Of a DNA stretch of 64,000 bases, positions 3,908 to 53,114 are shown piece after piece. A model generated the notes under the pieces. It saw only the letters and a program-made list of their open reading frames with translations. It did no database searches and was not told where the DNA came from. The translations under genes and the position numbers were made by a program. Source of the stretch: a virus; the IMG/VR virus record IMGVR_UViG_3300047564_002353, positions 1 to 64,000 of that record; one strand, written 5' to 3'. Position 1 is the first letter of the stretch. Each line of letters opens with the position of its first letter.

Positions 3908-4029
3908 AGTTAAATCCTCCTATTATATTAATGTGTATTGCTACACACCAGCAATCCAAAAAATATTAAAAACTGCTGTGGTTTATAAAAATTCAAAACG
4001 TTAAGTAGTTATCTAGATACAAAAAATAA

Positions 4030-4803: not shown

Positions 4804-5124
4804 TCAGACTCTAAATGATTCGCCACATCCACATCGGTCTTTTTCTTTGCTGTTAATAAAATCAAAACCTTCATTAAGACCTTGACGTCGCCAATCCATA
4901 GTCATACCATCAATGTATGGCAAATCTTTTGGATTTACAAAGATATTAATACCGTTGCTTTCGTATTTGATTTGCTCTGTGTTAGGTGTGTCTACATACT
5001 CTAATTTATAGGCAAGGCCTGAACAACCGGTGGTTCTAACACCAATCATTATACCCAGGCCTTGACCTCTTTTAGATAGCTGCTGCTGTACTTTCTTGGC
5101 TGCTATTTCTGTTAGCTGTATCAT
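4804..5124 (-). CDS. iscA: IscA/ErpA/HesB-type Fe-S carrier
   Basis: The 106-residue product is full length for an A-type Fe-S carrier. The three conserved cysteines are present: Cys34 in TTGCSGLAYKLEY and Cys98 and Cys100 in the C-terminal CGCGESF motif. In bacteria such proteins take Fe-S clusters from IscU and pass them to client enzymes in the cytoplasm. The reading frame overlaps the end of iscU by 53 bases, so the two are made together. No cysteine desulfurase (iscS) is in the window, so sulfur must come from the host enzyme. Confidence 0.92.
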   Translation of the reverse strand: MIQLTEIAAKKVQQQLSKRGQGLGIMIGVRTTGCSGLAYKLEYVDTPNTEQIKYESNGINIFVNPKDLPYIDGMTMDWRRQGLNEGFDFINSKEKDRCGCGESFRV

Positions 5125-5494
5125 TTTTTGCTTTATAATCCGCTAGCGCCGCTTTAATTGCGTCCTCCGCCAATATGGAACAGTGTATTTTGACAGGAGG
5201 TAGCGCGAGTTCTTCCGCAATGTGGGTATTCTTAATTTCAGCCGCCTCATTAAGATTCTTTCCCTTAAGCCACGTAGTGACAAGCGACGAACTTGCGATC
5301 GCCGAACCGCAACCATATGTCTTAAATTTGGCATCTGTAATGACATCGTCTTCTACCTTTATCTGTAGCTGTAATACATCTCCGCAAGCAGGAGCACCAA
5401 CCAATCCTGTTCCTACTTGAGGATCATTTTTATCGAGTTTTCCAACATTACGTGGATTTTCATAATGATCTAAAACTTGACCAGAGTATGCCAT
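5072..5494 (-). CDS. iscU: IscU Fe-S cluster scaffold
   Basis: The 140-residue product is a standard-length IscU. The ligands are visible: Cys37 and Asp39 in GAPACGDV, Cys62 in YGCGSAIASSS, and His104-Cys105 in the HscA-binding LPPVKIHC motif. It should assemble 2Fe-2S or 4Fe-4S clusters in the cytoplasm with host IscS and chaperones. Its ATG overlaps the TAA of the small basic peptide gene (TAATG). The C-terminal tail after residue 120 is Asn/Ser/Ala-rich and codes for the iscA start region in another frame. Confidence 0.95.
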   Translation of the reverse strand: MAYSGQVLDHYENPRNVGKLDKNDPQVGTGLVGAPACGDVLQLQIKVEDDVITDAKFKTYGCGSAIASSSLVTTWLKGKNLNEAAEIKNTHIAEELALPPVKIHCSILAEDAIKAALADYKAKNDTANRNSSQESTAAAI

Positions 5495-5787: not shown

Positions 5788-6377
5788 TATTTTTCTCCTT
5801 CGGTTATAATGTTATATATATCTTTCCAATTTTTTACAATTGGGTATGAACATACATGATTCATGTTATGTCCATGTTCCAACAAAATGGATTTTAAACC
5901 TAATTTATGACCAACATCAGCATTCTCTGGTTTATCTTCGATCCAAAATAAGTTGCTGTCTTTATAATTAGATAAAACCTCGTCTTTATCACCACCTGTA
6001 TCTAAAAAAATAAATTTTTCAAATGTGTCAGGTCCAAAGATTTTTTTTACATTCATTTCTCGTAGACGTTGTGCATTTTCGTCTTTACTCAAACTAGTTA
6101 TCAAATGAAAACGATAACCATGTTCTTCGTACAATCTTTTAACATAATGTGCAGCATCTCTAAGAGCAGGAAGAAATCCTATAGCAGCACTTTCGTTAAA
6201 AGATCTTACCATTTTTTTTGCTTCTTCTCGAGTTAATTTTTCAAAATGATCATGAAAATAATAACTGTAATGTCCGTTAGGAATAAGTTTGTATCCTCGT
6301 TCTTGCATCCAAATTCTGAATGCCCATTCCCAGTCAAGAATAACTCCGTCACAATCGGTTAATATAATTTTATCCAT
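5787..6377 (-). CDS. HAD-superfamily phosphatase
   Basis: The 196-residue product begins with the HAD motif I, LTDCDGV (Asp8 and Asp10), has a Thr/Ser motif II (LITSLS) near residue 115 and a late acidic motif (FWIEDKPENAD). It is likely a cytoplasmic phosphatase acting on a small phosphorylated compound, possibly a nucleotide as in 5'(3')-deoxyribonucleotidases. It is the first gene of the operon continuing to iscU and iscA. The promoter at 6384-6412 places the predicted transcript start at the ATG itself, so translation may begin without a ribosome site. Confidence 0.82.
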   Translation of the reverse strand: MDKIILTDCDGVILDWEWAFRIWMQERGYKLIPNGHYSYYFHDHFEKLTREEAKKMVRSFNESAAIGFLPALRDAAHYVKRLYEEHGYRFHLITSLSKDENAQRLREMNVKKIFGPDTFEKFIFLDTGGDKDEVLSNYKDSNLFWIEDKPENADVGHKLGLKSILLEHGHNMNHVCSYPIVKNWKDIYNIITEGEK

Positions 6378-6383
6378 GTTTAC

Positions 6384-6412
6384 ATTATAAAGTTAATGTA
6401 TTTGATTGTCAA
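6384..6412 (-). promoter_or_regulatory. Consensus sigma70-type promoter, probably leaderless
   Basis: TTGACA (6412-6407), 17 bases, TATAAT (6389-6384) and then GTAAAC-ATG. The A of the ATG is 7 bases past the -10 box, the usual start of transcription. The TGA of TTGACA is the stop codon of the PAAR gene. Confidence 0.85.
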
Positions 6413-12004: not shown

Positions 12005-13621
12005 TTAGCTAAGTGCTTGATATGTATAAGTGAATGTAGTTGTATTACTTACATTAACATTTACATATTTTACAATTATATCATTTCCGGATTTGGTGGC
12101 ACTAAAACTTATGTTATAAAAATCTCCAGATCCAGTATAATCAAAATCATCTGATAATTGAACACTACCAGTTACATAATTAACTGCTATTGTAATTTTA
12201 CCTGTTCTGGTTTCAGCTGGACTGGTACATTCAGTTTTATAATTGATTTCATATCCCATTGTTTGAGATATTGGTAATCTAAATGCAAATGCCTCAGTAA
12301 AATTTGTTGTTAAAGTAATGCTTCTTGGTTGAGTGTTTTGGTATAATGAAGTTCCTGAAACTTCAGGTAGATAAATGTTGTCTTGATTACCAGATAACTC
12401 ACGTTGCCTATCAAAATTTTCTTGTAAAGTAGAGTTGCCCGAAGTATTAAAAAATATATTACTAGTTTGGTTATTAGTGTTGCCGCCTCTATCATTTCCA
12501 ACATTTACAAATGTATTTCCTCTTGATCTGTTGCCATAGCCTGTTTCTATATAAATTCCGTATTCGTCTATTTCTTCAAACTTAGTATTTAAAATATGAT
12601 TAAATCTCGGACCGTACTGTTCTCCGACCGCAGAGTTACCAGTAGTGTTATCACCAAAACTAAATCCAACTCCGCATTCGGCGACATTGAAACTATTAAA
12701 AATATTAGTTTGAATATCAGTTTTACTAAAAACTGCTGTCTTAAATCCTTCAATGTTTATTCTATTAAATTCATTTCTCTGACAAGTAACCACTGAACTT
12801 AAAGCATATAATCCAATTGCAATACTGTTATTTGTTCCTGATAAAGTACTGTCATCGAATGTTCCTTTAATTTCTAAATCTTCAAACAAACTATCTCTTA
12901 CTGCATTAAGTTCTAAAGCTTGATTTGTGTTGTCACCTACATCTAATGTAAAATCTTTAAGTAAAATAAACTTTGGTTGATCATTATATTCAGGTGTACC
13001 AGGAGTAAGGCCCACAGGATAAGTTACAGTTCTACGAACAGTTGTAGTAGATTGATCTTCTATAAAACGAAAAACTGTTTTACTTGTCGAAGTAAATTGA
13101 AAAATTGTTTTCTTTATACCTGCACCTACCAGTCTGACATGGCTAGGCAAGTAAATTGTATCACTAATAAAATACGTTCCAGCAGCGAATTCAAGAGTCA
13201 CTCTACTTTCAGCATTGAACATTGTAGATTTATTAAGATATAAATTATCTATAGCACGTTGAATCGCTTCTGTTTGATCTTCTAATCCTGGAAGGATACC
13301 GTAAGCTGCGGCACTAACAGAATCATCAAGTCTTTGTTGTAAAGTTCTTGTAACAGGATAATTGACATCATCTGAAGTTAATATATTCGGATCGTCAATT
13401 TTATATGTGTAGTTACTAGCTATGTCTAGAAGGTTGTCTGCACTAGTAATAATTCTTGTATTACCAACTGCTGGTGCTCCTTCACTGACTGCACCGTTGC
13501 CAATGTATAATTTTTGTGTATCTATGGCCCATGCCATTTCCCCACTAGCTAACTGTGGAATCCCGTCTTGAGTTTCCTTTCCTCTTCGGACTTGTATGCG
13601 ACTAATCTGTACTACAGCCAT
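12005..13621 (-). CDS. Tail fibre/tailspike with beta-helix
   Basis: The 538-residue product begins with the phage fibre N-terminal motif IQVRRG...PQLASGEMAWAIDTQKLYIGNG, found on many tail fibres and Mtd-like proteins. A linker with an RTLQQRLDDSVS segment leads to a pectate-lyase-type beta-helix (SRVTLEFAAGTYFISDTIYLPSHVRL and following), and a C-terminal beta-sandwich. It probably binds or degrades host surface glycans. A late octamer and AAGGA ribosome site precede the gene. Confidence 0.85.
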   Translation of the reverse strand: MAVVQISRIQVRRGKETQDGIPQLASGEMAWAIDTQKLYIGNGAVSEGAPAVGNTRIITSADNLLDIASNYTYKIDDPNILTSDDVNYPVTRTLQQRLDDSVSAAAYGILPGLEDQTEAIQRAIDNLYLNKSTMFNAESRVTLEFAAGTYFISDTIYLPSHVRLVGAGIKKTIFQFTSTSKTVFRFIEDQSTTTVRRTVTYPVGLTPGTPEYNDQPKFILLKDFTLDVGDNTNQALELNAVRDSLFEDLEIKGTFDDSTLSGTNNSIAIGLYALSSVVTCQRNEFNRINIEGFKTAVFSKTDIQTNIFNSFNVAECGVGFSFGDNTTGNSAVGEQYGPRFNHILNTKFEEIDEYGIYIETGYGNRSRGNTFVNVGNDRGGNTNNQTSNIFFNTSGNSTLQENFDRQRELSGNQDNIYLPEVSGTSLYQNTQPRSITLTTNFTEAFAFRLPISQTMGYEINYKTECTSPAETRTGKITIAVNYVTGSVQLSDDFDYTGSGDFYNISFSATKSGNDIIVKYVNVNVSNTTTFTYTYQALS

Positions 13622-13639
13622 AATAGTTCCTTATTTTTA

Positions 13640-14323
13640 TTATTTATCGTACCAAACACGCTTTCCATTTTCGACGGTCCAGCTACGACCTCTACACCCG
13701 TTAGAGACAATTATTTTTCCTCGATTATTTTCATAAGGACTTAATTCAGGCATATCGCTTCTCCTAATTCTCCAACCTTTAGTTTGTTTTTGAAATAAAT
13801 GAGAGTCAGGATTATTAAGTGCCGATGGCATACTTTTGTCCACGCCGTTTTCTTCGCACCATTTTGATATATTTTGTACGTAAGTTTCTTCTGGATTTTC
13901 AACTCGACTGACGTACCAACCTTTTGTTCTTTTTTCTGCTTGCTTTTTAAACCAGGATTTTTTCTCAGAATCAGATAGATTGTTGAACCATATTCGGGCA
14001 CCTTCCATCTTATGACGACTATAGTCTATATTATCGTAAGGAATAAACTTACTCAAATTGCCACCAATGCCTCCGTTAGCTAAATTATAACTCATAGGAT
14101 CAGTAGTAGCATTAGTTTTGTTGATCCACTCTTGTTCTCGTAAATTAAGTTCTGTTTCACAAGAACAGGACTCGAGAATTTCTTTAACAAAATTCTCTTG
14201 GCCATATTTTTTATATGCTTGTTTAAGAAGCTTCCCTGATCCCATGTAATTAGAGTCAGTGCCGTTATGTTTTCCTATATACCAACGCCCATTGATTGTG
14301 TTTGTTATTTTATAAATGTACAT
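13640..14323 (-). CDS. GIY-YIG homing endonuclease
   Basis: The 227-residue product opens with YIYKITNTINGRWYIGKH, the GIY-YIG motif, followed by the catalytic Arg/Glu region (LREQEWINK) near residue 75-85. The C-terminal part has repeated W-containing DNA-binding-like segments (KGWYVSR, KGWRIRR) like those of free-standing homing enzymes. It cuts DNA at a specific site and spreads by gene conversion. It lies alone between a tail-fibre gene and the exonuclease gene, the usual position of a free-standing mobile endonuclease. Confidence 0.88.
   Translation of the reverse strand: MYIYKITNTINGRWYIGKHNGTDSNYMGSGKLLKQAYKKYGQENFVKEILESCSCETELNLREQEWINKTNATTDPMSYNLANGGIGGNLSKFIPYDNIDYSRHKMEGARIWFNNLSDSEKKSWFKKQAEKRTKGWYVSRVENPEETYVQNISKWCEENGVDKSMPSALNNPDSHLFQKQTKGWRIRRSDMPELSPYENNRGKIIVSNGCRGRSWTVENGKRVWYDK
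13641..13648 (-). promoter_or_regulatory. T4-like late promoter octamer GATAAATA
   Basis: GATAAATA on the minus strand, 20 bases before the fibre gene ATG, with an AAGGA ribosome site between. It overlaps the stop codon of the GIY-YIG gene. Confidence 0.65.
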
Positions 14324-14358: not shown

Positions 14359-15078
14359 TTATCCGGCTAGTTTATAGTATTCACTTACTCTGTCGCACCA
14401 TCGATTAGTCCAGTAATCAAAATCTGAAGGTTCTAGTATAAACTCTTGATATTGCGGTTCTCCCCACTTTCCAGGTTCAATTTCTGGAGGCCTAACACAC
14501 ATCATAATAACACCTTTTCGGATATTAGTACCGTGTACTTCGTTATGTGCTAGAGCATAGGCCGTAAGCTGTAAAAAGTAATCGTCGATCCATTCTAATT
14601 TTTTAGGCTTATTGGTCTGTTTAAAGTCTAGGATTGCTTCTTGTCCTTGATGAATTCCGCAACAATCTGTTGTACCAGCATACAATTCTGGGAAGTACAA
14701 AGGAACTTCGCTGCCCCATACTTCAGATATTAATGGAAATCCGTCTGCGATGACTTTACGTGCCATTATAAGACTTTGTTGGGCATAAGGATTAGTTAAA
14801 CTTTCTTTTAAAGTTTCTCCTTTGATATAATCTTCGAGAAACTTGTGCATACGGGTTCCACGGCCGGCTGCTTCTGTTGTGATTTCCTGTGCTTTCTTTT
14901 CGCCAACAGCCTTTTTCCAATTAGCTAATGCTTCACGTGCTTCTAAAGGTTTGGTTTTATCTAGTATAGTAGTTACACTGGGAACTTTGGAACCATCAGG
15001 GCAAGAATATAATCTCTTGCCCATTGATTCATCTCTGTATAATTTGGAATATTTGTATTTAGGGTTTAATAAATTCAT
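14359..15078 (-). CDS. PD-(D/E)XK exonuclease, Cas4/MGME1-like
   Basis: The 239-residue product has a RecB/Cas4-like nuclease core: a conserved N-terminal VPSVTTILDKT, GRGTRMHKFLEDY (motif with His), EVPLYF-x-GTTDCCG (motif II Asp) and AILDFKQTNKPK (motif III Asp-x-Lys), with a Gln-containing helix after it (FLQLTAYALA). It is likely a DNA exonuclease for recombination or host DNA breakdown. The promoter at 15085-15113 predicts a leaderless mRNA starting at its ATG. Confidence 0.85.
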   Translation of the reverse strand: MNLLNPKYKYSKLYRDESMGKRLYSCPDGSKVPSVTTILDKTKPLEAREALANWKKAVGEKKAQEITTEAAGRGTRMHKFLEDYIKGETLKESLTNPYAQQSLIMARKVIADGFPLISEVWGSEVPLYFPELYAGTTDCCGIHQGQEAILDFKQTNKPKKLEWIDDYFLQLTAYALAHNEVHGTNIRKGVIMMCVRPPEIEPGKWGEPQYQEFILEPSDFDYWTNRWCDRVSEYYKLAG

Positions 15079-15084
15079 AGTAAC

Positions 15085-15113
15085 ATTATATAGTTACTAA
15101 AAAAAAATGTCAA
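15085..15113 (-). promoter_or_regulatory. Consensus sigma70-type promoter, probably leaderless
   Basis: TTGACA (15113-15108), 17 bases including a T9 run, TATAAT (15090-15085), then GTTACT-ATG. The TGA in TTGACA is the stop of the frameshift extension 15110-15430. Confidence 0.85.
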
Positions 15114-15430
15114 CCTGGTTGTTGGAGGACGTTATTAGCAGCTCTAACTGCGTCAGAATTATTATCCTTAGCAGGTTCTCCTACTGTAGGTAGTTCCTTT
15201 TCTTTAGTTTTAATAGTAACACCGTAACTACTAAAATTTTGAACTAAGTTTTTTATATTAGGATCTTTATCAAAATTCATTTTAAATGAGTCATAGTCTA
15301 ATTCTTGACCTGTGACATTTTGATAAATTTTGCTGATAGCAGGCCAACTAAATTTTGATGGAGTATTTTTAGAGTTGGCCCGATGTTGTAAACTAGAAAG
15401 AACGCGAACCAGGTCCGCGCTCTCTGTTAC
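15110..15430 (-). CDS. Start-less -1 frame extension of the upstream virion protein
   Basis: After the A9-G slippery site the -1 frame stays open for 106 codons: VTESADLVRVLSS, then SWPAISKIYQN, ELDYDSFKMNFDKDP, IKNLVQNFSSYGVTIKTK, ending NVLQQPG and TGA. The frame is closed by TAG at 15466, and between that stop and the well-folded-looking part there is no ATG, GTG or TTG; the only Met is at codon 51. It therefore looks like the C-terminal domain of a frameshift product of the 15427-16332 gene. Its stop codon lies inside the next promoter's -35 box, as at other genes here. A homopolymer sequencing error is the alternative. Confidence 0.7.
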   Translation of the reverse strand, partial: VTESADLVRVLSSLQHRANSKNTPSKFSWPAISKIYQNVTGQELDYDSFKMNFDKDPNIKNLVQNFSSYGVTIKTKEKELPTVGEPAKDNNSDAVRAANNVLQQPG

Positions 15431-15439
15431 TTTTTTTTT
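15397..15439 (-). promoter_or_regulatory. Probable programmed -1 frameshift signal
   Basis: The zero frame reads TCA AAA AAA AAG TAA, which contains the efficient bacterial slippery heptamer A-AAA-AAG. Four bases later a 12-bp stem (15425-15414 with 15408-15397, three G-U pairs, loop CCTGG) follows. This is the same arrangement as the dnaX frameshift cassette: slippery heptamer plus downstream hairpin. Confidence 0.7.
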
Positions 15440-16332
15440 GAATTTAAGATTTGGCCTAGTTTTCTACTATAGTCTACACTTTCTCTACGTGCTCGGCCTG
15501 CTGCTTCTTCGCCACCTGCTGCTGGAGCCGAAGTAGCGAATTCGTCACCAGCTGCTGCCACTTCGCCTTCTAGGCCGGCTTCGGCACCTGGTTCCATCAT
15601 TTCAGGACTTCCCATGCCTGGTGCTTCTTCGCCTGTTATAACTGCTACAGCTTGTGCTAGAGCAGTTCTGTTTGTTTCTAAATTAGTATATAAATCGTCT
15701 AATGCTGGTTTAACTTTTTGTTCAAATTGATTACTAATATCTGATCCAAGTTCATCTCTTATAGAGTCCACTAATTCTAACAACGCCTCTGATTTCAAGC
15801 TGGCAGTAGCTTCGATCCATCCAGTGATTTTATCTACCATATCGCGAGCTTTCATAATTAACGCTGCTTTTTCTTCTTCGCCTTCTGTAATTACTTGCTC
15901 ACTTAGTGCTTGCCTTAAAACTTCCATTGCTTCGCCTACACTTTCTTTTTTAGCCATCTTAGTAGCCGTAGCATACATTACTTCGTCGCCTTTTTTACCA
16001 TAACGTTTTGAAAAATCGCCTTTGACTTTCTTCATACCCTTCACATATTTTTCACGCTTTGATTCTTCATCTGGACTTAAAGAACGTTCCGATAATGCTT
16101 GAACAATAACATCTAAAAATGCACGGTCTTTACGATATTCTGTATTTTCATAGACTGCATCATAATTCTGGCTAGATTCGAAATTAGCGATTTTGTCCAC
16201 TAATTTATCTCTAATAACCGCCAGTTGCTCATAGGTAAAACCTTCTAAATTAAGCTTATAGCCGAACTGTCTAGCCACGCTTTCGTTCAATGTTTTACTT
16301 GTTTTTGGATGTGAAAGGTCTTTTACTTGCAT
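15427..16332 (-). CDS. Virion/prohead-associated protein ending at a frameshift site
   Basis: The 301-residue zero-frame product begins MQVKDLSHPKTSKTLNESVARQFG and contains LEGFTYEQLAVIRDKL, KGDEVMYATATKMAKKE, a long helical region and a Gly/Ala/Glu-rich linker before VDYSRKLGQILNSKKK. The style is that of structural or core proteins of aquatic T4-like phages. LNE at residues 15-17 fits a gp21-type protease site. The last codons form an A9-G slippery run, so part of the product is probably extended by 106 residues. Confidence 0.75.
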   Translation of the reverse strand: MQVKDLSHPKTSKTLNESVARQFGYKLNLEGFTYEQLAVIRDKLVDKIANFESSQNYDAVYENTEYRKDRAFLDVIVQALSERSLSPDEESKREKYVKGMKKVKGDFSKRYGKKGDEVMYATATKMAKKESVGEAMEVLRQALSEQVITEGEEEKAALIMKARDMVDKITGWIEATASLKSEALLELVDSIRDELGSDISNQFEQKVKPALDDLYTNLETNRTALAQAVAVITGEEAPGMGSPEMMEPGAEAGLEGEVAAAGDEFATSAPAAGGEEAAGRARRESVDYSRKLGQILNSKKK

Positions 16333-16367: not shown

Positions 16368-16797
16368 CGAAATTATAATTAAAGAGCTTTGATATTTGAG
16401 TCTTATAATGCTCTGTTCTAGTTTTTGTAATATCCCACCTAGAAATATATATATCTTTCTTTATAGTGTCCTTAGATTTATTGTATCTTTCCCTAAAAAC
16501 TATAGAATCTGTTGCGTTAGTCCAATATTTTGTATCAAGATCTTTTACTTCTTTAAAATTATGTATCTGATTCCTATCATAAAATTTTGCAGCTAATGCA
16601 GCATTAACTTTTAATTTAAAAGTTTCTATAATTTGATCACTTGAATTTAACAGATCCCAATTTTCTAACTTGTTTTTCTTGATCTTAAAGTTTTTATATA
16701 ACAAACAATTTTTATTTACAACTAAAAGAGGAACTTTTTTATTAAATTCCTCTTCCATCAATTTCTCTAATTTTTCTGCATGTTTTTTAAAATTCAT
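16363..16797 (-). CDS. Conserved-looking phage protein, 144 residues
   Basis: The product is rich in Lys, Asn and aromatic residues, with LKVNAALAAKFYDRNQIHNF, KYWTNATDSIVFRERY and DIYISRWDITKTRTEHY as distinctive segments. It overlaps the 66-residue gene upstream by 11 bases. It is probably a structural or assembly protein from its position; the function is unknown. Confidence 0.7.
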   Translation of the reverse strand: MNFKKHAEKLEKLMEEEFNKKVPLLVVNKNCLLYKNFKIKKNKLENWDLLNSSDQIIETFKLKVNAALAAKFYDRNQIHNFKEVKDLDTKYWTNATDSIVFRERYNKSKDTIKKDIYISRWDITKTRTEHYKTQISKLFNYNFG

Positions 16798-16987
16798 TTG
16801 CGATGACTTTCGGATCTTTATCTCCTATTTTAATTACCAAACTTTTTCGAATCATACCCTCGATTGTGAATTGATCTCGTTCACTAAAACTACTTAACTT
16901 TTGAGGATAATTAAGACGCTCTAGCATCGCTTTCTCCTCATTCGAAGTATAAATTTCAAAAGTTTTTAATATTTCGTTTAATTTCAT
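16787..16987 (-). CDS. Small phage protein, 66 residues
   Basis: The product (MKLNEILKTFEIYTSNEE...) is helical and charged with EGMIRKSLVIKIGDKDP near the end. Its ATG overlaps the stop of the 16984-18360 gene, and its end overlaps the next gene. No family is recognised. The M-K-x-N-E-I start resembles the capsid-targeting-like starts of neighbouring products. Confidence 0.6.
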   Translation of the reverse strand: MKLNEILKTFEIYTSNEEKAMLERLNYPQKLSSFSERDQFTIEGMIRKSLVIKIGDKDPKVIANEF

Positions 16988-18360
16988 TTTAATCCAGATA
17001 ACTGTCTTAACCTTGCTAATTCTGCAGATTCTTGCTGAGGCTGTGCTGCTGTTTTTTTACCGAATAATTTATCAAAAAATCCAGGTGCATTAGGATCTGT
17101 TTTTGTTCTTCCAGTTTTTGGATCCCACTTCCCTGGTCCTGGGTACCCGTTTGGATTAAATCTATTCTGCGGATTGGCATTTGCCCAAGCAATTTCATCT
17201 TCGGAACGACTTGTCACTGCTTTGCCGTCACTAGTAGTTAATGTACCACCTGTGCCAGTTTTAACTGGGGGTGCTACTGTGCTTGCACCTGTATCCGGAT
17301 TAACCTCCGGCGATGTTCGTTGTCCTAGTGCAGCAGCTGGTACTGTAGATGCATCACGAGGTTGCGCTGCTTGATTCTCTGGAGGTACCGGTTTGTCTGC
17401 TTGTGGTGCCGGCTGCAATGCGTTTGCAACATTAGCTGTTTGAGCTACACCTAATGCATTAGTGTTAGGTGCCGGAGTTGTTGTTGGTTGTGCAGCCTGT
17501 GCCATAGCTTGGTCTTGTTGACTGGCCTGTTGATTTAATGTGTTCTGTCCAATAGCTAATTGTTTTAATCTATCTAAGTCAGGATTTTGTGCAGGAGCCG
17601 GTTGAGCTAATGCAGCATTACCTGCTGCTAAACTTGGATCTTTATTTGGATCATATGGATCTATACTTGGATCAGTTGCTGTTACACCGGCAACATTTGG
17701 ATCAGTTGCTCTGTCTGATATAGTAGGAGCATAAGCACTTGAAGCGTTATTAACTGGTTGTTCTGCCTTAGGTGTTCCATCTGGATTATGTGTCGCTCCA
17801 TATTTCTTTAACCATGCTTGACCTTTAGGACCAGTACTTGGCTTACCGTTTAATGTTGGCTGGGGAGGAACTTTGCCGCCAGCAGGTGCTGGTTTAGCTG
17901 CGGGTTTAGCTGCGGGTTTAGCTGCGGGTTTCGCTGCTGGTTTAGCTGCTGGTTTAGCTGCTGGGTCAGCCGCTGGTTTCGCTGCTTGATTTGCTGGCTG
18001 GGCGTCGGCTTGATTCATTATGGCAGCAGCGAAACCAGCATCACCGGACATTGCTCCTGTCATAGAATCAGAGTAAAATTGTTGACGCTGTTGTGGTGTC
18101 ATTGCTGCTACTTGATTAGCTGCTACATTGCTAAGAGTAGCTCCTCCGGCCGCTACCGCAGCAGGAACAAGAGCAGCTCCAGCCGCTGGTCTAAGAGCCT
18201 TTGTGGCCTTTTGAACTTTGTCTGGTACTTCTCTAAATTTCTGATCTATAACATTTGGATTATTAACTAATGTTGATGGAGCTCTATTTGGAACAGCCGG
18301 TAGGTTGGGCTGATACGGTACGATATTTGCTTCTCTAATAACAACGTCTTTAATTTTCAT
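16984..18360 (-). CDS. Low-complexity Pro/Ala-rich virion protein
   Basis: The 458-residue product starts MKIKDVVIREANIVPYQP, a possible capsid-targeting segment with an IRE cleavage site. It then has an Ala-rich helix, a run of about eight PAAK-type repeats (about residues 125-158), and long Pro/Ala/Gln/Thr-rich disordered stretches. The end, LARLRQLSGLK, is like the end of the next gene's product. A disordered internal or scaffold protein of the capsid is a reasonable inference; no enzyme motif is visible. Confidence 0.7.
   Translation of the reverse strand: MKIKDVVIREANIVPYQPNLPAVPNRAPSTLVNNPNVIDQKFREVPDKVQKATKALRPAAGAALVPAAVAAGGATLSNVAANQVAAMTPQQRQQFYSDSMTGAMSGDAGFAAAIMNQADAQPANQAAKPAADPAAKPAAKPAAKPAAKPAAKPAAKPAPAGGKVPPQPTLNGKPSTGPKGQAWLKKYGATHNPDGTPKAEQPVNNASSAYAPTISDRATDPNVAGVTATDPSIDPYDPNKDPSLAAGNAALAQPAPAQNPDLDRLKQLAIGQNTLNQQASQQDQAMAQAAQPTTTPAPNTNALGVAQTANVANALQPAPQADKPVPPENQAAQPRDASTVPAAALGQRTSPEVNPDTGASTVAPPVKTGTGGTLTTSDGKAVTSRSEDEIAWANANPQNRFNPNGYPGPGKWDPKTGRTKTDPNAPGFFDKLFGKKTAAQPQQESAELARLRQLSGLK
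17889..17990 (-). repeat. PAAK tandem repeat in a virion gene
   Basis: About eight 12-base units coding Ala-Lys-Pro-Ala (GCGGGTTTAGCT-like on the plus strand) lie in tandem with little divergence, so the copy number may vary between genomes. Confidence 0.75.
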
Positions 18361-18369
18361 AATTTTTCC

Positions 18370-19302
18370 TTATTTTAATCCTGCTAATCTTAATAGGTCT
18401 TCCGTAGTTTTTCCAATTTCTACTTGATCACCTGCTTTGATAGTTGATGGCTGAGTTGACTGTTGTGCAGGTGTACCTTGTGCTTGTGGGCCTACTAATT
18501 TTAGTTTTCCTGTCGCAGGATCTTTAGTTAAGCTTGTAGGATTTTTCTTTAAATCTACAATAGTAGTCATTCCTGGACCAGTGTTCAACGTAGCAGTTAG
18601 CCCAGGCTTGTAATCTACTATTTTACCCATTTCTGATTCAGCTAATTCTTTATTCTTATGTTTTTGTCCACGAACATCCTTGGCTGCTCGTTTAGCATCT
18701 TTGTGTTTGCCTGCTCCTGCTGTCTTAGCATTCTTAGCTACAAAATTACGTGGTTTAGGAGGTTCTGATTGTTTCATAGTATTTTCATCTAGTGGTTCTA
18801 ATTGATCTGATTTTAACATATCTCGTACAAGACTTGGTTTTAATTTATATACTTTTGCTAAAGTAATTATAGTTTGTTTATCGTCACCAAAATCGTCGCC
18901 CATATCATGTGCATCTGATTGTATTTGAAACTTAATCTGTTTCAAGTCACGATGACCTTCTGCTACACCTTGCTCTTTTTCTTGTTTCTCTCTTTCTTCG
19001 CGTTCTTTCTTTTGTTTGGCCAACAAGTCTTCGATACGTTTAGCACCGGCATCTGGATCATAACCGGCACGTTTTAGACTACGCTTAAATTTTTCTCTAG
19101 TAGATAATTTAGCAGTTTCTGTTACGCTTTCTAATTTTGATTTTAATTTACTATGTTTTTCTAATTCTGATTTAGGAGACTGTGCTTTGGCTTTAGCTTT
19201 CTTTTTTTCTGCTTCAGGACCAACAAGAGGCACAGGCTTCTTTGCATACTTAATAGCCTTTACGCCTTTCTTGTGTTCATTTAATAAATGATCTATTTTC
19301 AT
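18370..19302 (-). CDS. Lysine-rich internal/scaffold-like protein
   Basis: The 310-residue product starts MKIDHLLNEHKKG, with an LNE site after a short acidic/hydrophobic peptide. It is very rich in Lys and Glu, with a coiled-coil stretch (KQKKEREEREKQEKEQG) and a basic stretch (GKHKDAKRAAKDVRGQKHKNK). It ends TTEDLLRLAGLK, similar to the previous gene's C-terminus. The charge pattern suits a DNA-associated core or internal protein. Confidence 0.7.
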   Translation of the reverse strand: MKIDHLLNEHKKGVKAIKYAKKPVPLVGPEAEKKKAKAKAQSPKSELEKHSKLKSKLESVTETAKLSTREKFKRSLKRAGYDPDAGAKRIEDLLAKQKKEREEREKQEKEQGVAEGHRDLKQIKFQIQSDAHDMGDDFGDDKQTIITLAKVYKLKPSLVRDMLKSDQLEPLDENTMKQSEPPKPRNFVAKNAKTAGAGKHKDAKRAAKDVRGQKHKNKELAESEMGKIVDYKPGLTATLNTGPGMTTIVDLKKNPTSLTKDPATGKLKLVGPQAQGTPAQQSTQPSTIKAGDQVEIGKTTEDLLRLAGLK

Positions 19303-20015
19303 AATGATCTCAAACTTAATTCTCTATCTTCTAATTCACGAATCTTATCTCTAAGCTTACCTATATATCCTTGAGCACGTAACACTTTAAAAGTTAAATT
19401 TTCTACACTAAACTCTCCGCCTTGATCTAATCCAGCTTTTCTAATTTTAGCTAATTCATCTTTAACTGCTACTAGTCTTTTTTTATTATTAGATTTAAGT
19501 GCTAAGTTTATTTTACTAATGTAATTATTTACCTTGTTTTCTACATCATCATCGTTGATGTCAACACGCTCTTGCTTGGGTTCGCTAATCCAGCGATCAT
19601 CTAGAACACTATATATTCCTGCACTATGATGCGGATCTTTAGACCCTTGCACATATAGTTCTACGTCTATACCTTTAATTTGAATATTTCTAGTAAAGTT
19701 ATATTGATTCTTTTTAGCATCAAATAATTGTTTTAATTGTGTCTCTTGATCAGATGAAATATCAACTATTAGATGTAAATCTAGATCACTTTGATCTGTG
19801 TATGTATATGCAGCGTTGCTACCGCTTACAGTAATATCTTTTAAATTAAGCTTATCAATTGCTATAAAATCAATAAAGTTCTTGGCTATCTGTAGTAACT
19901 TATATCTTATAACTGGTTTTAATTGATTATTCTTCCACAAAACGGGATTCAATGTATCACGAAAGATAACTGCGTTATCTACTATACCTTCTTGTGTAAG
20001 TTCTCTTAGATACAT
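19299..20015 (-). CDS. Polymerase-beta-fold nucleotidyltransferase-like protein
   Basis: The 238-residue product has the nucleotidyltransferase signature VSGSNAAY...DQSDLDLHL (Gly-Ser at 65-66, Asp77 and Asp79) and a third acidic residue in GIDVELY (Asp117). It should transfer a nucleotide to a protein, RNA or small molecule; the acceptor is unknown. It starts MYLRELTQEG, like the capsid-targeting-like starts nearby, so it might be packaged in the head and injected. The start overlaps the previous stop by 4 bases. Confidence 0.75.
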   Translation of the reverse strand: MYLRELTQEGIVDNAVIFRDTLNPVLWKNNQLKPVIRYKLLQIAKNFIDFIAIDKLNLKDITVSGSNAAYTYTDQSDLDLHLIVDISSDQETQLKQLFDAKKNQYNFTRNIQIKGIDVELYVQGSKDPHHSAGIYSVLDDRWISEPKQERVDINDDDVENKVNNYISKINLALKSNNKKRLVAVKDELAKIRKAGLDQGGEFSVENLTFKVLRAQGYIGKLRDKIRELEDRELSLRSL

Positions 20016-20016
20016 A

Positions 20017-20403
20017 TTATTGATTCAATATTTTTACTACTGTTTCCCAATAAGCAGCGATCCATCCTATGACTGCTACACCACCAAGAATTAAGTATGT
20101 CCACTTAGCTCTAAACTTTTCTAAATCTGTAATTTTATCAGCTAATTCATGATGCTGAGCTGTTTGTATTTTATGCAATTCATCCGCATGGGCATAAAAT
20201 TTATCTCTATTGGATCTATATTCAACCAACATGATATCTAATTTATTATCTAATAGATCTCTAGTTCGATCTAAACAGTCATGCATGTCTTTAACATCTA
20301 CTTTTAGTTCGTCAACTTTTTCGTCTATTACTTCGACTTTAGTTTCTAATACACTTACACGTTCTTGTGTAGGTACGGATTCTAATTTTGCTGCTCGTGC
20401 CAT
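20017..20403 (-). CDS. Coiled-coil protein with C-terminal membrane anchor
   Basis: The 128-residue product has a long heptad-rich region (RVSVLETKVEVIDEKVDELK and on to about residue 98) and a single hydrophobic segment near the end (YLILGGVAVIGWIAAYW). It is probably a tail-anchored membrane protein. It may belong to the envelope or lysis group; no family is recognised. An AAGGAGA ribosome site precedes the ATG. Confidence 0.7.
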   Translation of the reverse strand: MARAAKLESVPTQERVSVLETKVEVIDEKVDELKVDVKDMHDCLDRTRDLLDNKLDIMLVEYRSNRDKFYAHADELHKIQTAQHHELADKITDLEKFRAKWTYLILGGVAVIGWIAAYWETVVKILNQ

Positions 20404-20472
20404 CGGGCATCTCCTTGTTATTTTTGTTCTTTTAAAAACGCCAAAAAAATGCCTAATATGTGCCTAATGTAA

Positions 20473-20480
20473 TATTTATT
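20473..20480 (-). promoter_or_regulatory. Late promoter-like octamer AATAAATA
   Basis: AATAAATA on the minus strand includes the TAA stop of the 20476-20850 gene and lies 70 bases before the 20403 ATG. The leader between them has a direct repeat TTAGGCA and a T7 run. Confidence 0.5.
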
Positions 20481-20850
20481 GTTTAAAATCAAAAATGATA
20501 TTTTGACCTAATTTAAAAAGTGGCTTATCAAATACTACTTGTTCTGTTAGCTCTGATATGAATGGTACATATTCAAAAGAATCCTTTAATCTCCCTATAT
20601 TGTCCCCATCTTTAGCAAATAGCTCTTCAATTTCCATACGCCATTCAAAGTACCAGCAATTAATATCTGGGCGACCAAAAATGTCAGCAGGTATTTTTTT
20701 AGGCGGATTATCATAGTACATATTTCCACTTAATTGAATGGTTTGAGTCACTGTATCAAAGTTTTGTTGTTGATTACGTTCCAGTCTCTCGCCGCTTCTA
20801 TGGTGTCCGGTAGCAGTTATATCAACTAAAGTATAAAGGCAATAAAGCAT
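20476..20850 (-). CDS. Conserved-looking phage protein, 124 residues
   Basis: The product starts MLYCLYTLVDITATGHHRSG and has NQQQNFDTVTQTIQLSGN and INCWYFEWRMEIEE. I recall similar proteins in T4-like cyanophages, without a function. It lies just after the strong terminator at 20870-20895 and has no separate promoter that I can see. Confidence 0.65.
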   Translation of the reverse strand: MLYCLYTLVDITATGHHRSGERLERNQQQNFDTVTQTIQLSGNMYYDNPPKKIPADIFGRPDINCWYFEWRMEIEELFAKDGDNIGRLKDSFEYVPFISELTEQVVFDKPLFKLGQNIIFDFKQ

Positions 20851-20869
20851 CAGTTTATTTAACAGCCAT

Positions 20870-20895
20870 AAAAAAAGGCCTACAAAAAGTAGGCC
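20870..20895 (-). terminator. Strong Rho-independent terminator
   Basis: A 7-bp GC-rich stem (20877-20883 with 20889-20895, 5-base loop) is followed on the minus strand by seven T residues. It closes the transcript of the 20921-21343 gene. Confidence 0.9.
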
Positions 20896-20920
20896 CGCTT
20901 CCCATCCCTAGGAAAAACTA

Positions 20921-21343
20921 TTAAACGTGGTTAGCTAATAGTGGGAAACCAGTACCACGTACTACTGTTGCGCTGGTTAAGTCAATGCTGTTAGCACCAA
21001 CTGTTGCACCTAGACCTTGAATTAGGTCTTCTAAGTGTGCAGCAAATGATTCGCTGTTTGTGCCGTCATATGTGTCAGTACCGAAATCACCTTCTACGTA
21101 GATGTCAATCAATTGACCTGCGTTTGCACCGGCGTCAGCACGTAGAGCACTGTGACCAACAATTGTACATACTGAAGAAATAGTACGTAGAGCGATTTGT
21201 ACACACTCATTTGGTCCCATTTCTGTTGAACCAAAGTTTGTAGCGTTGACTGCGAAGTCAAGTGTGTACATGTCTAGGGTTTTACCTAGAAAACTTCTAG
21301 CTGTATTAGCTAATTCTGGATTAACTTTTGTTTGAATTGCCAT
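20921..21343 (-). CDS. Probably abundant small structural protein, 140 residues
   Basis: The product (MAIQTKVNPELANTARSF...) is acidic and Ala/Gly/Thr-rich with segments such as TSATVVRGTGFPLLANHV. No family is recognised. The gene is a single-gene unit: a GTAAATA late-like motif, a leader with two stable hairpins, a strong GAGGAG ribosome site, and a strong terminator right after the stop. This is the expression pattern of an abundant virion protein; a head decoration or similar role is inference. Confidence 0.7.
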   Translation of the reverse strand: MAIQTKVNPELANTARSFLGKTLDMYTLDFAVNATNFGSTEMGPNECVQIALRTISSVCTIVGHSALRADAGANAGQLIDIYVEGDFGTDTYDGTNSESFAAHLEDLIQGLGATVGANSIDLTSATVVRGTGFPLLANHV

Positions 21344-21366
21344 AATAAATCTCCTCGTTTGGCTTT

Positions 21367-21401
21367 GCTTACTCTCTGTAAGCAGCCTACCCTATGTAGG
21401 C
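21367..21401 (-). promoter_or_regulatory. Two tandem hairpins in the leader of the 140-residue protein gene
   Basis: GCTTAC-5-GTAAGC (21367-21383) and GCCTAC-5-GTAGGC (21385-21401) are two adjacent 6-bp stems with 5-base loops, before the GAGGAG ribosome site. They may protect the mRNA from decay. Confidence 0.65.
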
Positions 21402-21412
21402 CGTTGTAATAT

Positions 21413-21420
21413 TATTTACC
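21413..21420 (-). promoter_or_regulatory. Late promoter-like motif GGTAAATA
   Basis: GGTAAATA on the minus strand, upstream of the hairpin leader of the 140-residue gene, resembles the late octamer in its last six bases. Confidence 0.45.
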
Positions 21421-21463
21421 AAAAAAGTTTAAAATAGGGTATTAATGGCTTATTTTGATGTAT

Positions 21464-22609
21464 TTAAGTTGGAGTCCAGCGTCGTCTCGGAACAAACTTT
21501 ACATTACCAAATTTCTTTTCGTCACCGGCATATCTTACACGCCCTTCGCCTTGTGTATCCCATATTTCGCCTTGACCTTGTTCTGCTTGATCAATAACTT
21601 GATCTTTGAGATTCATAATGCGTATTACTAGTCCAAAAATAGCTTCAAGTGCTTTAGAATTTTCTCTAGATTTTTGTTCTATTTTTGTCTGTTTAGGTGT
21701 GCTAACTTTACTAGATTTTAACCAATTAAAAAAGTGGTTAGCTCCTAAATTATCTAATTGATGCCCTTTAGCAGTTTGATTTACATATGTGTATAATATA
21801 TTTTTAAGATCTCCCAGTCCAGGAGTTTCTTGTAAAAATTGATCAATTTGTCTACTATGTTGTCCTAAATAATTTTCTACTGCTTCAATATCTTTAGTAT
21901 CAAGACTAACAGGATTACTGTTATATACAGGCCCTTGAACAATCAATTCTGGATTACGATTGAACATACTAAAATCGTCTAAAGGTTGTTGTTCGCTATC
22001 ATCCATGCCAAACTCTGGAAAGAAAGCGTGACCTACAACCATTACTCTAGCACCGCTAATACTTTGTCCTAATGGACTGTCTTGACGAACATGATAACAA
22101 GTTTTACTTTTTGGATTAGGGCAAAATGTGTATATTCCATTTTCTAATTTAGGTGAGGCTAAAAATAATCCATCAGCATAGACAAATCCTACAAAGTCTT
22201 TTGGAGTTGCTCGATCAAATAAAGTATATAAGTTTGCAAATTGTTTTGCAAACATCTGTCTTGCACGAGCTTCTTCAGGAGTCTTAGGCTTGCCACTTTT
22301 GTTAGCAATGAAATCTTCTAAGTCATCGGGGTTATCTGTTTTGGCACCTCGACTCCATCCGTTGTGTCCGGATAAAATCAAAGGGCCTCCTGCAACTTCT
22401 CGTCCCCAATAAATTTGAGGATTGCCATCCCACTTCATACGTAAACTTTGACTACCTTCGGAAGTCATTATTTCTTTCAAATGCTCTAGTGCTTCCATAG
22501 TACCTTGACTGCCATGAAAAAATACTAGATCTTCTAAGTGGTTAAATGCTCTGCCTAATTTTTTTAAGACAGGAGTTGTGTTTTCAAAAAGGAATTCTTT
22601 AGCTCTCAT
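21464..22609 (-). CDS. KxDG ligase-like phage protein (DUF6267-type)
   Basis: The 381-residue product starts MRAKEFLFENT, a capsid-targeting-like segment with an LFE site. The core RMKWDGNPQIYWGRE contains Lys59-x-Asp-Gly, the nucleotide-binding motif of DNA/RNA ligases, followed by GHNGW and, later, FVGFVYADGLFLASPKLENG, similar to ligase motif III/IIIa. It matches what I recall as the DUF6267-type phage family. A role in RNA or DNA joining is inferred from the motif only. It begins a run of four enzyme-like genes (21464-23771 and 19299). Confidence 0.7.
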   Translation of the reverse strand: MRAKEFLFENTTPVLKKLGRAFNHLEDLVFFHGSQGTMEALEHLKEIMTSEGSQSLRMKWDGNPQIYWGREVAGGPLILSGHNGWSRGAKTDNPDDLEDFIANKSGKPKTPEEARARQMFAKQFANLYTLFDRATPKDFVGFVYADGLFLASPKLENGIYTFCPNPKSKTCYHVRQDSPLGQSISGARVMVVGHAFFPEFGMDDSEQQPLDDFSMFNRNPELIVQGPVYNSNPVSLDTKDIEAVENYLGQHSRQIDQFLQETPGLGDLKNILYTYVNQTAKGHQLDNLGANHFFNWLKSSKVSTPKQTKIEQKSRENSKALEAIFGLVIRIMNLKDQVIDQAEQGQGEIWDTQGEGRVRYAGDEKKFGNVKFVPRRRWTPT

Positions 22610-23013
22610 TCAAATATATCTCTATGTAATTTTCCATACAACTTCATTAGATATCCAGCTTTAGCGTCAGCTTCTACTTCTAATGGACTACCTGGTCCAT
22701 TTCTTGTTGCACGTTGTATTTTTCCAATTTGGCCTTGTTTTACATGTACAAGTTCGTGACAAACTGTACGTAATATATCAACCATGTTACGATTACCTAC
22801 ATATACTACCATATGATTGTTTTGATAATCCCATTGTCCAGTTCTATGTTGATCCTGTGCATCATCTGTATCATAGCTAAACACAATGTTAATTGGTTCG
22901 TCAGCTAGGCTTAAACGTTTTTTAGTCCATTCGATGAAATGTTTTACTCTAGCTTCTCTACGATTACTAGGTTTAATTATATCTTCAATTCTTTCTAACT
23001 CTTTGAATCTCAT
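22606..23013 (-). CDS. HExxH metallopeptidase-like protein (SprT-like)
   Basis: I start at MRFKELERIE (23013), which forms an ATGA overlap with the upstream gene. The 135-residue product has HELVH at residues 86-90, the zinc-binding motif of SprT/WSS-type peptidases, after a strand with HMVVYVGNRN, and ends with an EVEADAKAGYLM segment whose Glu could be the third zinc ligand. It is a small protein-cleaving or peptidase-like enzyme of unknown target. Confidence 0.75.
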   Translation of the reverse strand: MRFKELERIEDIIKPSNRREARVKHFIEWTKKRLSLADEPINIVFSYDTDDAQDQHRTGQWDYQNNHMVVYVGNRNMVDILRTVCHELVHVKQGQIGKIQRATRNGPGSPLEVEADAKAGYLMKLYGKLHRDIFE

Positions 23014-23771
23014 TTTAACTTTTCCATCATTGCTCGGAACCATTGATTAGTTCCTACCTGATAGGATTCATTTTGTTTAGGCCAATTTTCATCTGCTAAT
23101 GCATTTTTAACTCTAGGATCATTAATTCCTTGAGGAAGTTTTTCTAGAATTTTTTCTACACTACCTAAATCATTTCCTGATGCGCCTGGACCTAATAATA
23201 TAACTGCTACTTCGTCGGCATCTTGACTAATAAGATCGCCTTTTTTCCCGTCAGGACCTCTAGTAAATAATCCTTGAAATCCGCTCCACATCATTCCGTA
23301 AGGATGTTCAGCAGTTCTAGTTTCTTTAGCCATACTGCTAAGAAGAATATGTTTATGCACTCCTTTAAAAGGAGTATTTTCTATGCTGTAATCATGTTGA
23401 TGGAATCTACTAACTTGTCCGGCATTTTTTACTAACATGATGTCGACTTGTGCAAATTTGTCTCCGTTAGGAATTTTAACATGAACATTTATTCCTGTTT
23501 GAGCTGAAGCATACCCTCTGTCGAGAAGATAATTTTTTAATGATGCTCGAGCACTTTTTTCATCTTTAGTTCCTGTAGCTTTCAACATCTGTTCAGCATC
23601 TACCATGATGTCCATGTCGCCGCTACTAGCTTTATGTCCAGCAGATCCTACAGGGATTAGATCAATACCTTTAGGCATGATATTTTGAGCAAATTTAAAA
23701 ATTGCTTCTGCTTCTTTTTTGTCAAATGGTTCTACATCCGGAAAAACATTTCCGCCTTCATTTAAGATCAT
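23010..23771 (-). CDS. Nucleotidyltransferase-fold protein
   Basis: The start MILNEGGNVF at 23771 is preferred because CAGGAAAG precedes it; the frame is open further upstream. The 253-residue product has the polymerase-beta signature PVGSAGHKASSGDMDIMVD (Gly42-Ser43, Asp52, Asp54) and a third Asp in AQVDIMLV (Asp110). A basic C-terminal region follows (LFTRGPDGKKGDLI). It could be a nucleotidyltransferase or a processed injected protein; LNE near the start suits a protease site. Its ATG overlaps the previous gene by 14 bases. Confidence 0.75.
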   Translation of the reverse strand: MILNEGGNVFPDVEPFDKKEAEAIFKFAQNIMPKGIDLIPVGSAGHKASSGDMDIMVDAEQMLKATGTKDEKSARASLKNYLLDRGYASAQTGINVHVKIPNGDKFAQVDIMLVKNAGQVSRFHQHDYSIENTPFKGVHKHILLSSMAKETRTAEHPYGMMWSGFQGLFTRGPDGKKGDLISQDADEVAVILLGPGASGNDLGSVEKILEKLPQGINDPRVKNALADENWPKQNESYQVGTNQWFRAMMEKLK

Positions 23772-24985: not shown

Positions 24986-25624
24986 TTATTGCCACGCTGA
25001 CATTTGATATTGTTCCCTAGGTACACCAAAGTAATCGCATTTCCAATCACATTGTTCAGTATACTCTAAGTGTCCCCATTGATCCTTTAGTTTAAGAACT
25101 TGCTTGCCAGCATCTTCCCAATCTAGATCTTTAAGAATATTTTCCATTCTGCCTTTTATTTCCAGCATTTCATCATGGTCATAACCGTCGTACTCCCAAT
25201 GTAATATCTCAAGACAGTTACCATAACAATCAACGTAGTCCATGGAAAAGTCTAATCCCCATTTAGGACGTAGCTTTATTAATTGCCATATTAAAGGAAA
25301 ATACTTGGTCCACATTTTAAGTTGACTTAATGCTTCTCCACTATATCCTTTACGTTCAAACAAGTTGCTGTGGTTTAGAACAGTGCCTTCTATTTTATCA
25401 AACTGATCGAACCAAGGTTGATGTACTGAAGCACGATAGTGTCCAAACTTACCTAACGGTGCATTATTTGTCTTAGCATACATTTGTTCAAGGTCGCATA
25501 GATCAAAGGCTACTTGATCAAATAATCTTACATGATCTAATTTAGGAGCGAAATATCCTGGTAGAGGCACAGCCCAATATCCATTAGAATTCCAAAAATT
25601 ATTTGTTAATACTAAATCTCGCAT
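24986..25624 (-). CDS. Unknown protein, 212 residues
   Basis: The product (MRDLVLTNNFWNSNGYWAVP...) is rich in Trp, Tyr and Asp, with GHYRASVHQPWFDQFD and DYVDCYGNCLEILHWEYDGYD. It resembles a compact alpha/beta domain, perhaps a structural protein. It overlaps its upstream gene by one base (shared A). No family recognised. Confidence 0.6.
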   Translation of the reverse strand: MRDLVLTNNFWNSNGYWAVPLPGYFAPKLDHVRLFDQVAFDLCDLEQMYAKTNNAPLGKFGHYRASVHQPWFDQFDKIEGTVLNHSNLFERKGYSGEALSQLKMWTKYFPLIWQLIKLRPKWGLDFSMDYVDCYGNCLEILHWEYDGYDHDEMLEIKGRMENILKDLDWEDAGKQVLKLKDQWGHLEYTEQCDWKCDYFGVPREQYQMSAWQ

Positions 25625-25998
25625 TAGAAATTTCCTTGCATTCTTCCTTGATCAATATCATTCTTTTTAGCATAGTCATCAATGATCATTGCTATTTTGA
25701 AGTCTAATACTGTGAGTCCATCTACATCTGATGTAGTGGTCTTTACAGTTACTTCTGCTACATCTTGTGTAACTTCGGTAAAGTGATCCATACGCTCACT
25801 TTCTTGATTAATAAACTCTATAAATTCTTCTGCTTGTCTATGATCCTGGGCAACATAAGTCGCTTGTAAAACTTTATGATCCAGCATTTCCCAGTCAGGA
25901 AGATACTTAGATTTCATATCATCTAAGAATTCGTCTTTGGCGACGAAATCTTCAACAGGATCTGATCTGCCTTCTATAATATCAATCCATTGTCTCAT
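25624..25998 (-). CDS. Acidic protein with capsid-targeting-like start
   Basis: The 124-residue product starts MRQWIDIIEGRSDPVED (IIE site). The rest is acidic with alternating strands (VAEVTVKTTTSDVDGLTVLDFKIAMI). No family recognised. Its ATG lies in a 4-base overlap with the next upstream gene. Confidence 0.6.
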   Translation of the reverse strand: MRQWIDIIEGRSDPVEDFVAKDEFLDDMKSKYLPDWEMLDHKVLQATYVAQDHRQAEEFIEFINQESERMDHFTEVTQDVAEVTVKTTTSDVDGLTVLDFKIAMIIDDYAKKNDIDQGRMQGNF

Positions 25999-26420
25999 TG
26001 TGTTCTATCCTTGTTATCTATGGCACCGCCTGTTACCCACGCTGTACAAGATCTTTCGCCCGCACATTTGAAATGTAGGAAGTTACAGTAGCCCAAATCT
26101 GCTTTGTGTATAGTTGCCATAGCATCTGCATCTTTTTCATCGCCTTTGATACCATCTTCAATACACTTCCACATCTTATCACTAACATCAAACGCTGCAC
26201 AATTACCACACTTCATAGTCTTAGCAGTCTTTTCGTCTATTCCCCATTGCTTGGCACTATCTTTCCAGTAGTTGCCAGGCTCGTCTGGATTAGCAGGACC
26301 GTAGTGATAATCGTCTATGGCCCGTTGACGATTTTTTAAATTAACGTCAATGTCGTATGTAGCAACGGGACAGCCTTTGTTGGCTGCTTCTACGATGTTG
26401 ATATATTTTCTGTATGTCAT
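25995..26420 (-). CDS. Cysteine-rich HiPIP-like protein
   Basis: I start at MTYRKYINIVEAANKG (26420), an ATGA overlap with the upstream gene and a capsid-targeting-like start (IVE site). The 141-residue product has CGNCAAFD near residue 73, then CIEDG, GYCNFLHFKCAGERSCTAWVTGG. The CxxC-x(n)-GxC-x(n)-C-x-W order is reminiscent of high-potential iron-sulfur proteins, though with extra Cys. A zinc or 4Fe-4S site is likely; which is not decided by sequence alone. Confidence 0.6.
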   Translation of the reverse strand: MTYRKYINIVEAANKGCPVATYDIDVNLKNRQRAIDDYHYGPANPDEPGNYWKDSAKQWGIDEKTAKTMKCGNCAAFDVSDKMWKCIEDGIKGDEKDADAMATIHKADLGYCNFLHFKCAGERSCTAWVTGGAIDNKDRTQ

Positions 26421-52779: not shown

Positions 52780-52808
52780 TTGACTAAAATAATAAAAGGG
52801 CATATAAT
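52780..52808 (+). promoter_or_regulatory. Sigma70-type promoter, plus strand, probably leaderless
   Basis: TTGACT (52780-52785), 17 bases, TATAAT (52803-52808), then GTAGCT-ATG. The A of the ATG at 52815 is the predicted first base of the mRNA. Confidence 0.8.
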
Positions 52809-52814
52809 GTAGCT

Positions 52815-53114
52815 ATGAAATATAAACCTGGTGAATCAATCGAAGAATGGGCAGATCGTGTTCGCATGTTCGAGTACGGTGAAGCTATTAAACAAATTGC
52901 AAATGGCCAAGATGTTAATGTAGTCATGGAAGCCATGAGCGTTCGAATCATGGAAAAAATAAAGTACCCATTACTTAAACAAATTAAAGAATGGGGCACT
53001 TCAACTTATGATGCCACTGTAGCTAAAGAAAACTATAAAAAGAATTATTTAGATAAAACTCGACCAGTGGCAGATCATATGAACGATGTAGACGACCCAA
53101 ATTATACTACTTGA
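52815..53114 (+). CDS. Small helical protein, 99 residues
   Basis: The product (MKYKPGESIEEWADRVRMFEYGEAIKQ...) is helical and charged, and ends with DKTRPVADHMNDVDDPNYTT. No family recognised. It is the only plus-strand gene in this stretch, has its own promoter without an untranslated leader, and its end overlaps the convergent minus-strand gene by 13 bases. Confidence 0.7.
   Translation: MKYKPGESIEEWADRVRMFEYGEAIKQIANGQDVNVVMEAMSVRIMEKIKYPLLKQIKEWGTSTYDATVAKENYKKNYLDKTRPVADHMNDVDDPNYTT

Follow-up and report, generated by a model that had tools for sequence, protein, structure and literature searches.

The window analysed here is a stretch of 64,000 nucleotides that forms part of a 102-kb virus record (IMG/VR record IMGVR_UViG_3300047564_002353, positions 1 to 64,000), and all features of the locus described below are located on its minus strand. 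The upstream gene in the 0 frame (15427..16332), a homologue of CBB_298, comprises 301 codons and encodes a 301-aa protein. Direct reading of the minus strand gives AAT TCA AAA AAA AAG TAA as its 3' end, as described in the first-pass annotation; a slippery heptamer A_AAA_AAG (15430..15436) is directly followed by the 0-frame stop codon TAA (15427..15429), and a second, overlapping heptamer, A_AAA_AAA (15433-15439), is located 3 nt upstream of the first; the A run comprises 9 bases, at 15439-15431. Re-reading from G15430 yields GTA ACA GAG AGC GCG GAC CTG; the -1 frame opens past a stop at 15466, passes this GTA at 15430 and ends with a TGA at 15110, and the resulting extension (15110..15430) consists of 106 codons plus TGA, with codon 51 as its first ATG, GTG or TTG, in agreement with the earlier description of an extension that lacks a usual start. 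A predicted stimulatory stem-loop (15397..15425) is located 3' of the slippery site. The sequence AAAAAAAGTAA occurs once in the window, compared to 0.22 occurrences expected, which is weak evidence alone; chance can be excluded for this site because it is conserved in relatives, and not because of its count in the window.

The TGA of the extension overlaps a σ70-like promoter (TTGACA-17-TATAAT, 15085..15113) with a 12/12 match, consistent with the previous proposal that this stop codon is placed inside the -35 box of the next promoter. This promoter, which is retained in relatives, reads into the next gene (14359..15078), which is exonuclease-like (phrog_298) and marks a gene order that also occurs in cultivated Rak2-like phages. 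Consensus-like promoters are found in the window at 15076-15113 and 6375-6412 on the minus strand and at 52780-52817 and 59996-60033 on the plus strand; in these four matches (0.03 expected in the window), TATAAT ends only about 6 nt before an ATG, which suggests leaderless mRNAs.

Relatives were identified by searches of IMG/VR with the 301-aa protein, a profile of the extension and a profile of the 301-aa protein; the latter search showed that at least 535 IMG/VR stretches encode relatives of the upstream protein, of which 80 were kept. Among the matches listed, 79 distinct loci contained both parts and formed the comparison set, and the extension is in the -1 frame at 76 of these. An in-frame heptamer of the form A_AAA_AA[G/A/C] was found at or just before the stop in 75 of the 76 minus-1-frame loci (A_AAA_AAG in 59, A_AAA_AAA in 10 and A_AAA_AAC in 6), with L069 as the one locus lacking it, and the 0-frame stop follows it at a distance of 0 nt in 65 of the 75 junctions and of 3-18 nt in the remaining ones. 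No ATG, GTG or TTG occurs between the upstream stop and six codons past the slip in 60 of the 75 junctions. The A run has a length of 9-10 in 74/75 junctions, with a single locus (L149) showing A6, and KKK is preceded in almost every case by a codon with a final A, either TCA or CCA. A tblastn search of INPHARED with three extension sequences and a scan of genome contigs for the extension yielded no match. The alignment of homologues proposed in the first-pass annotation thus showed conservation of the A-rich run, the hairpin and the frame, and the programmed -1 frameshift proposed there is strongly supported by a heptamer, register, hairpin and extension that are conserved over 75 distinct junctions, with upstream proteins down to approx. 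40% identity.

With regard to the RNA structure, the hairpin in the window has a folding energy of about -18 kcal/mol (z between about -2.3 and -3.8, according to the segment chosen for folding) and starts 4 nt after the heptamer by fold, or 8 nt after it if the conserved 9-bp core is considered; the earlier description placed the hairpin correctly, but its 12 bp and CCTGG loop are replaced by 13 bp and a 3-nt loop in our own fold. Within the window's own group, 97.8% of cells in the 9-bp helix are paired over 31 distinct rows, and five pairs show two-sided changes (21 such cells vs 4.8 in shuffles); when the partner strand was slid by 1-3 columns as a control, pairing dropped to 31-43%. Codon usage inside the hairpin is also skewed, with GCG representing 28/33 alanine codons (vs 66/1460 elsewhere) and CGC representing 28/35 arginine codons (vs 91/671 elsewhere), indicating that the RNA itself, and not the protein alone, is conserved. 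Over the 79 loci, the 60 nt past the heptamer have a mean structure z of -3.30, with 58/79 below -2, compared to a mean z of -0.16, with 5/79 below -2, for a control stretch 120 nt further on. Distant members carry unrelated stems in the same region (CCCTTAG/CTAAGGG and ATCCGTTAGTA/TACTAACGGAT). Significant structure is missing from about a dozen distant loci, and hairpins are weak in L049/L050 and L062, two lineages that belong to the window's hairpin group. Measured by fold, stem offsets in the junction set mostly fall at 3-6 nt, and the core is offset by 8 nt; in published cases, the stimulator typically begins 5-8 nt downstream (PMC4066793). A search of the hairpin region against Rfam yielded sub-threshold chance matches only, and a reading of the hairpin as a terminator was rejected, as a pattern scan made no terminator call.

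The extension is under strong purifying selection (dN/dS about 0.03-0.19), in line with the initial view that it encodes protein-like sequence. AlphaFold, supplied with 35 sequences, predicted 64 residues with a pLDDT of at least 90, nearly all of them within residues 1-75, and an order of elements (H-E-H-H-H-E-E) that is followed by a disordered tail ending in NVLQQPG. Foldseek identified only weak winged-helix matches in the PDB (best E 0.1, for the MCM8 WH domain) and, in BFVD, an unnamed protein of an uncultured Caudovirales phage (E 2.8e-4); PHROGs and Pfam provided no name for the extension. For residues 1-75, these comparisons suggest a winged-helix-like fold, although none of the PDB matches is significant. 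The 301-aa protein is predicted to be all or mostly helical, with a disordered Ala/Gly/Pro-rich stretch at residues 236-279 and a conserved C-terminus (GR-x-x-RES-x-x-YSRKLGxIL-S-KKK).

Genes for gp23 and for a prohead protease of the gp21 type are present in two relatives with large contigs, G001 (364 kb) and G002 (383 kb), and the gp23 of G001 is nearest (67-73%) to those of the jumbo phages Phosso, Vibrio 2.275, CBB, GAP32 and BF, in which a profile search also found homologues of the 301-aa protein. Homology of the upstream protein to CBB_298 is clear (hhalign profile-profile E 1.1e-7). CBB, GAP32, BF and Vibrio phage 2.275 share the gene order found here, i.e., a small gene, a gene of approx. 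267 aa, the homologue of the 301-aa protein, a gene of approx. 111 aa (CBB_299 in CBB) and the exonuclease; CBB, GAP32 and BF additionally have RNR alpha in the vicinity. Likeness between the approx. 111-aa proteins and the extension is weak but consistent (hhalign E 0.0016, probability 16%; HMMER 5e-5 in a five-sequence search); in CBB, GAP32 and BF, these proteins have ITEDA near their start and a tail similar to that of the extension, and their genes begin, after a Shine-Dalgarno-like sequence, with MRFSQITEDA. Unlike the window, these cultivated Rak2-like phages have two neighbouring genes, each with a start of its own, for the homologue of the upstream protein and the probable homologue of the extension, and they have no slippery site or A run. 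In the window, a GIY-YIG homing-endonuclease-like gene and a gene for a pectate-lyase-like protein with an Mtd_N domain (12005-14323, minus strand) occupy the interval between the exonuclease and RNR alpha; in CBB, this place is taken by two different small genes. The gene for a protein with a weak nucleotidyltransferase-like signature (19299-20015, minus strand) lies upstream of the frameshift gene, an arrangement that is retained as far out as the L069 outgroup.

Several neighbouring proteins in the window (16787-23043 on the minus strand, 25624-26435 and 55742-57136) share short N-terminal peptides (MKIKDVVIRE, MKIDHLLNE, MYLRELTQE, MRAKEFLFE and MRFNEF), and CBB_299-type proteins begin with MRFSQITE. 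These peptides resemble T4 capsid-targeting sequences, which are cut after E, and the proteins that share them are possibly a set of head-internal proteins. Mass spectrometry of CBB virions detected CBB_298 with 10 peptides (35.81% coverage) and CBB_299 with 2 peptides (20%) (PMC5259590), and BF_0296 and BF_0297 are annotated as structural. The two products of the window are thus probably virion proteins, as initially proposed, with support that is indirect and comes through homology. The window also encodes a NifU_N/IscU-type iron-sulfur scaffold (5072-5494, minus strand; PF01592, E 4e-51), an unusual auxiliary gene, as well as an AlgH-like DUF179 protein (55197-55745, minus strand; PF02622, E 2e-29) beside an HNH endonuclease gene (54631-55143).

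We consider it highly probable that a dnaX-type programmed -1 ribosomal frameshift produces a 301-aa and a 407-aa protein from this one gene, as ribosomal -1 slippage fits all conserved features, i.e., the heptamer, the spacing, the 3' structure and the frame. The extension could instead be translated as a separate gene, through termination-reinitiation or from a non-AUG start, so that no fusion would form. The closest relatives, four near-identical loci from the first search (L001-L004) with an extension 82% identical to that of the window, have an ATG as the codon after GTA and hence a TAATG stop/start overlap, which first looked like a refutation of frameshifting, a view that was altered by wider searches; a junction ATG that could allow reinitiation occurs in 10/79 loci, L069 has an ATGA-coupled gene, with ATGA over the upstream stop, and the gene is separate in cultivated Rak2-like phages, where an SD-like sequence precedes its ATG in CBB, GAP32 and BF. 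The refuting condition named in the first-pass annotation, relatives whose extension has its own start, thus holds only in part. The window has ACA in place of the ATG of L001 and no usual start before codon 51, 68/79 loci are without a junction ATG, and this ATG is unstable, with at least seven gains or losses on the upstream-protein tree (approximate counts, from a single-gene tree built in 'quick' mode), whereas every member of the frameshift set has the heptamer, as do all ten loci with the ATG. A codon drifting among ACG, ACA, AAT and ATG would be expected to give this pattern, and the junction ATG is not the conserved route. L069 and the separate-gene isolates, by contrast, have neither heptamer nor A run, and we regard independent translation of the extension in the frameshift set as very unlikely.

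An identical fusion (...SKKKVTE...) would arise if RNA polymerase slipped on A9 and yielded transcripts with one extra A, a less likely explanation to which we give only a small probability. The A run found in nearly all junctions is long enough for such slippage, which would also explain TCA or CCA before KKK (TCA represents just 203/1002 serine codons elsewhere in these genes). The A that precedes KKK, though, also provides the ribosome with a second, overlapping heptamer, which explains its conservation. A polymerase slipping on the run would not yet have transcribed the 3' hairpin, which is nevertheless conserved, with covariation and a constant position, and L149 retains A_AAA_AAG even though its run has only six A. 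Transcriptional slippage fits better than a -1 ribosomal shift in L147, L150 and L153 (junctions near 3948-3960), which come from three different metagenomes and have A10-A11 with the extension in the +1/-2 register, where a -1 shift would meet a stop; the register in this branch may reflect either a homopolymer miscount or true transcriptional slippage. Error-prone A9 homopolymers, the A8 of L048 at a contig edge and the difference by one A in these three loci could also point to sequencing or assembly error, or the extension could be the remnant of a decayed fusion gene; as a general explanation, error or decay is refuted by the comparative data, since 75 distinct junctions share one register and the extension shows the low dN/dS reported above, and its probability is negligible.

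Under ribosomal frameshifting, most ribosomes would read TCA AAA AAA AAG and stop at TAA to yield the 301-aa protein, and a fraction would be stalled by the hairpin located shortly downstream, move one base back on the lysine codons and resume at GTA. The slipped ribosomes would produce the 407-aa protein with its C-terminal winged-helix-like domain, which would be incorporated into the virion through the shared N-terminal part. We infer the slippage itself, its efficiency and the entry of both forms into the virion through this shared part from sequence comparisons.

The site resembles that of E. coli dnaX, which also combines A_AAA_AAG with a stable stem-loop a few nt 3' of it and gives a short and a long product. 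It differs in that the frameshift product of the jumbo-phage gene is the longer one, with the 0-frame stop directly after the slip, in that no upstream Shine-Dalgarno-like stimulator is evident by eye, and in belonging to a different protein family. A second parallel is the frameshift of the lambda tail assembly chaperone gpG/gpGT, reportedly described by Xu, Hendrix and Duda in 2004, which likewise concerns a phage morphogenesis-type gene and a widely conserved, minority -1 product with an extra C-terminal domain. G-T frameshifting has been reviewed and is conserved in long-tailed phages except T4 (PMC5009743). Unlike gpG/gpGT, which are absent from the virion, the CBB homologues of the window proteins are found in the virion. 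A tail assembly chaperone was also rejected on the basis of gene context, as the locus is not between tail tube and tape measure but has an exonuclease gene and genes without an assigned function as its neighbours; a T4-type chaperone (gp26/gp51 family, PF12322) was rejected as well, since PF12322 is located at 91 kb in G001 and 174 kb in G002, and the frameshift gene at 290 kb and 27 kb, respectively. Frameshift extensions of capsid or tail proteins have been described for T3/T7 gene 10, A118, PSA and A2 (PMC5009743); these systems also have two virion-protein forms with a common N-terminus and an added domain in the longer form, but the extension in the window is predicted to be winged-helix-like and not Ig-like, and is found in jumbo T4/Rak2-type myoviruses.

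On balance, we lean slightly towards a scenario for a large clade of uncultivated T4/Rak2-type jumbo phages in which obligatory -1 frameshifting came to link two virion proteins that are encoded by separate, adjacent genes in cultivated relatives; the second of these genes would have lost its start and N-terminal peptide, and its product would exist solely as a C-terminal addition to a minor share of the first protein, with which it would enter the particle. At least three states occur in this one gene family, i.e., separate genes with a Shine-Dalgarno sequence, ATGA-coupled genes and frameshifting, and L069, which is placed among frameshift members on the tree (SH-aLRT 99), may represent a reversion from frameshifting to coupling. 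While frameshifting of the dnaX type and phage proteins extended by frameshifting are both well documented (PMC5009743, PMC4066793), our searches of the open-access literature on frameshifting and on these phages yielded no description of such a case in this gene family or in T4/Rak2-type jumbo phages, which is not proof of novelty; the finding thus seems to represent a known mechanism in a new gene family and an unusual evolutionary setting, undescribed for this gene and virus group. Gene callers would split or truncate the frameshift gene, and relatives of its upstream protein are encoded by at least 535 IMG/VR stretches. The locus provides a clean, deeply conserved case of recoding in T4-type jumbo phages, with T4 being the exception for the tail-chaperone frameshift (PMC5009743). 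As sister states with separate genes exist, it is possible to study directly how a stop/start arrangement was exchanged for frameshift-controlled stoichiometry of particle proteins.
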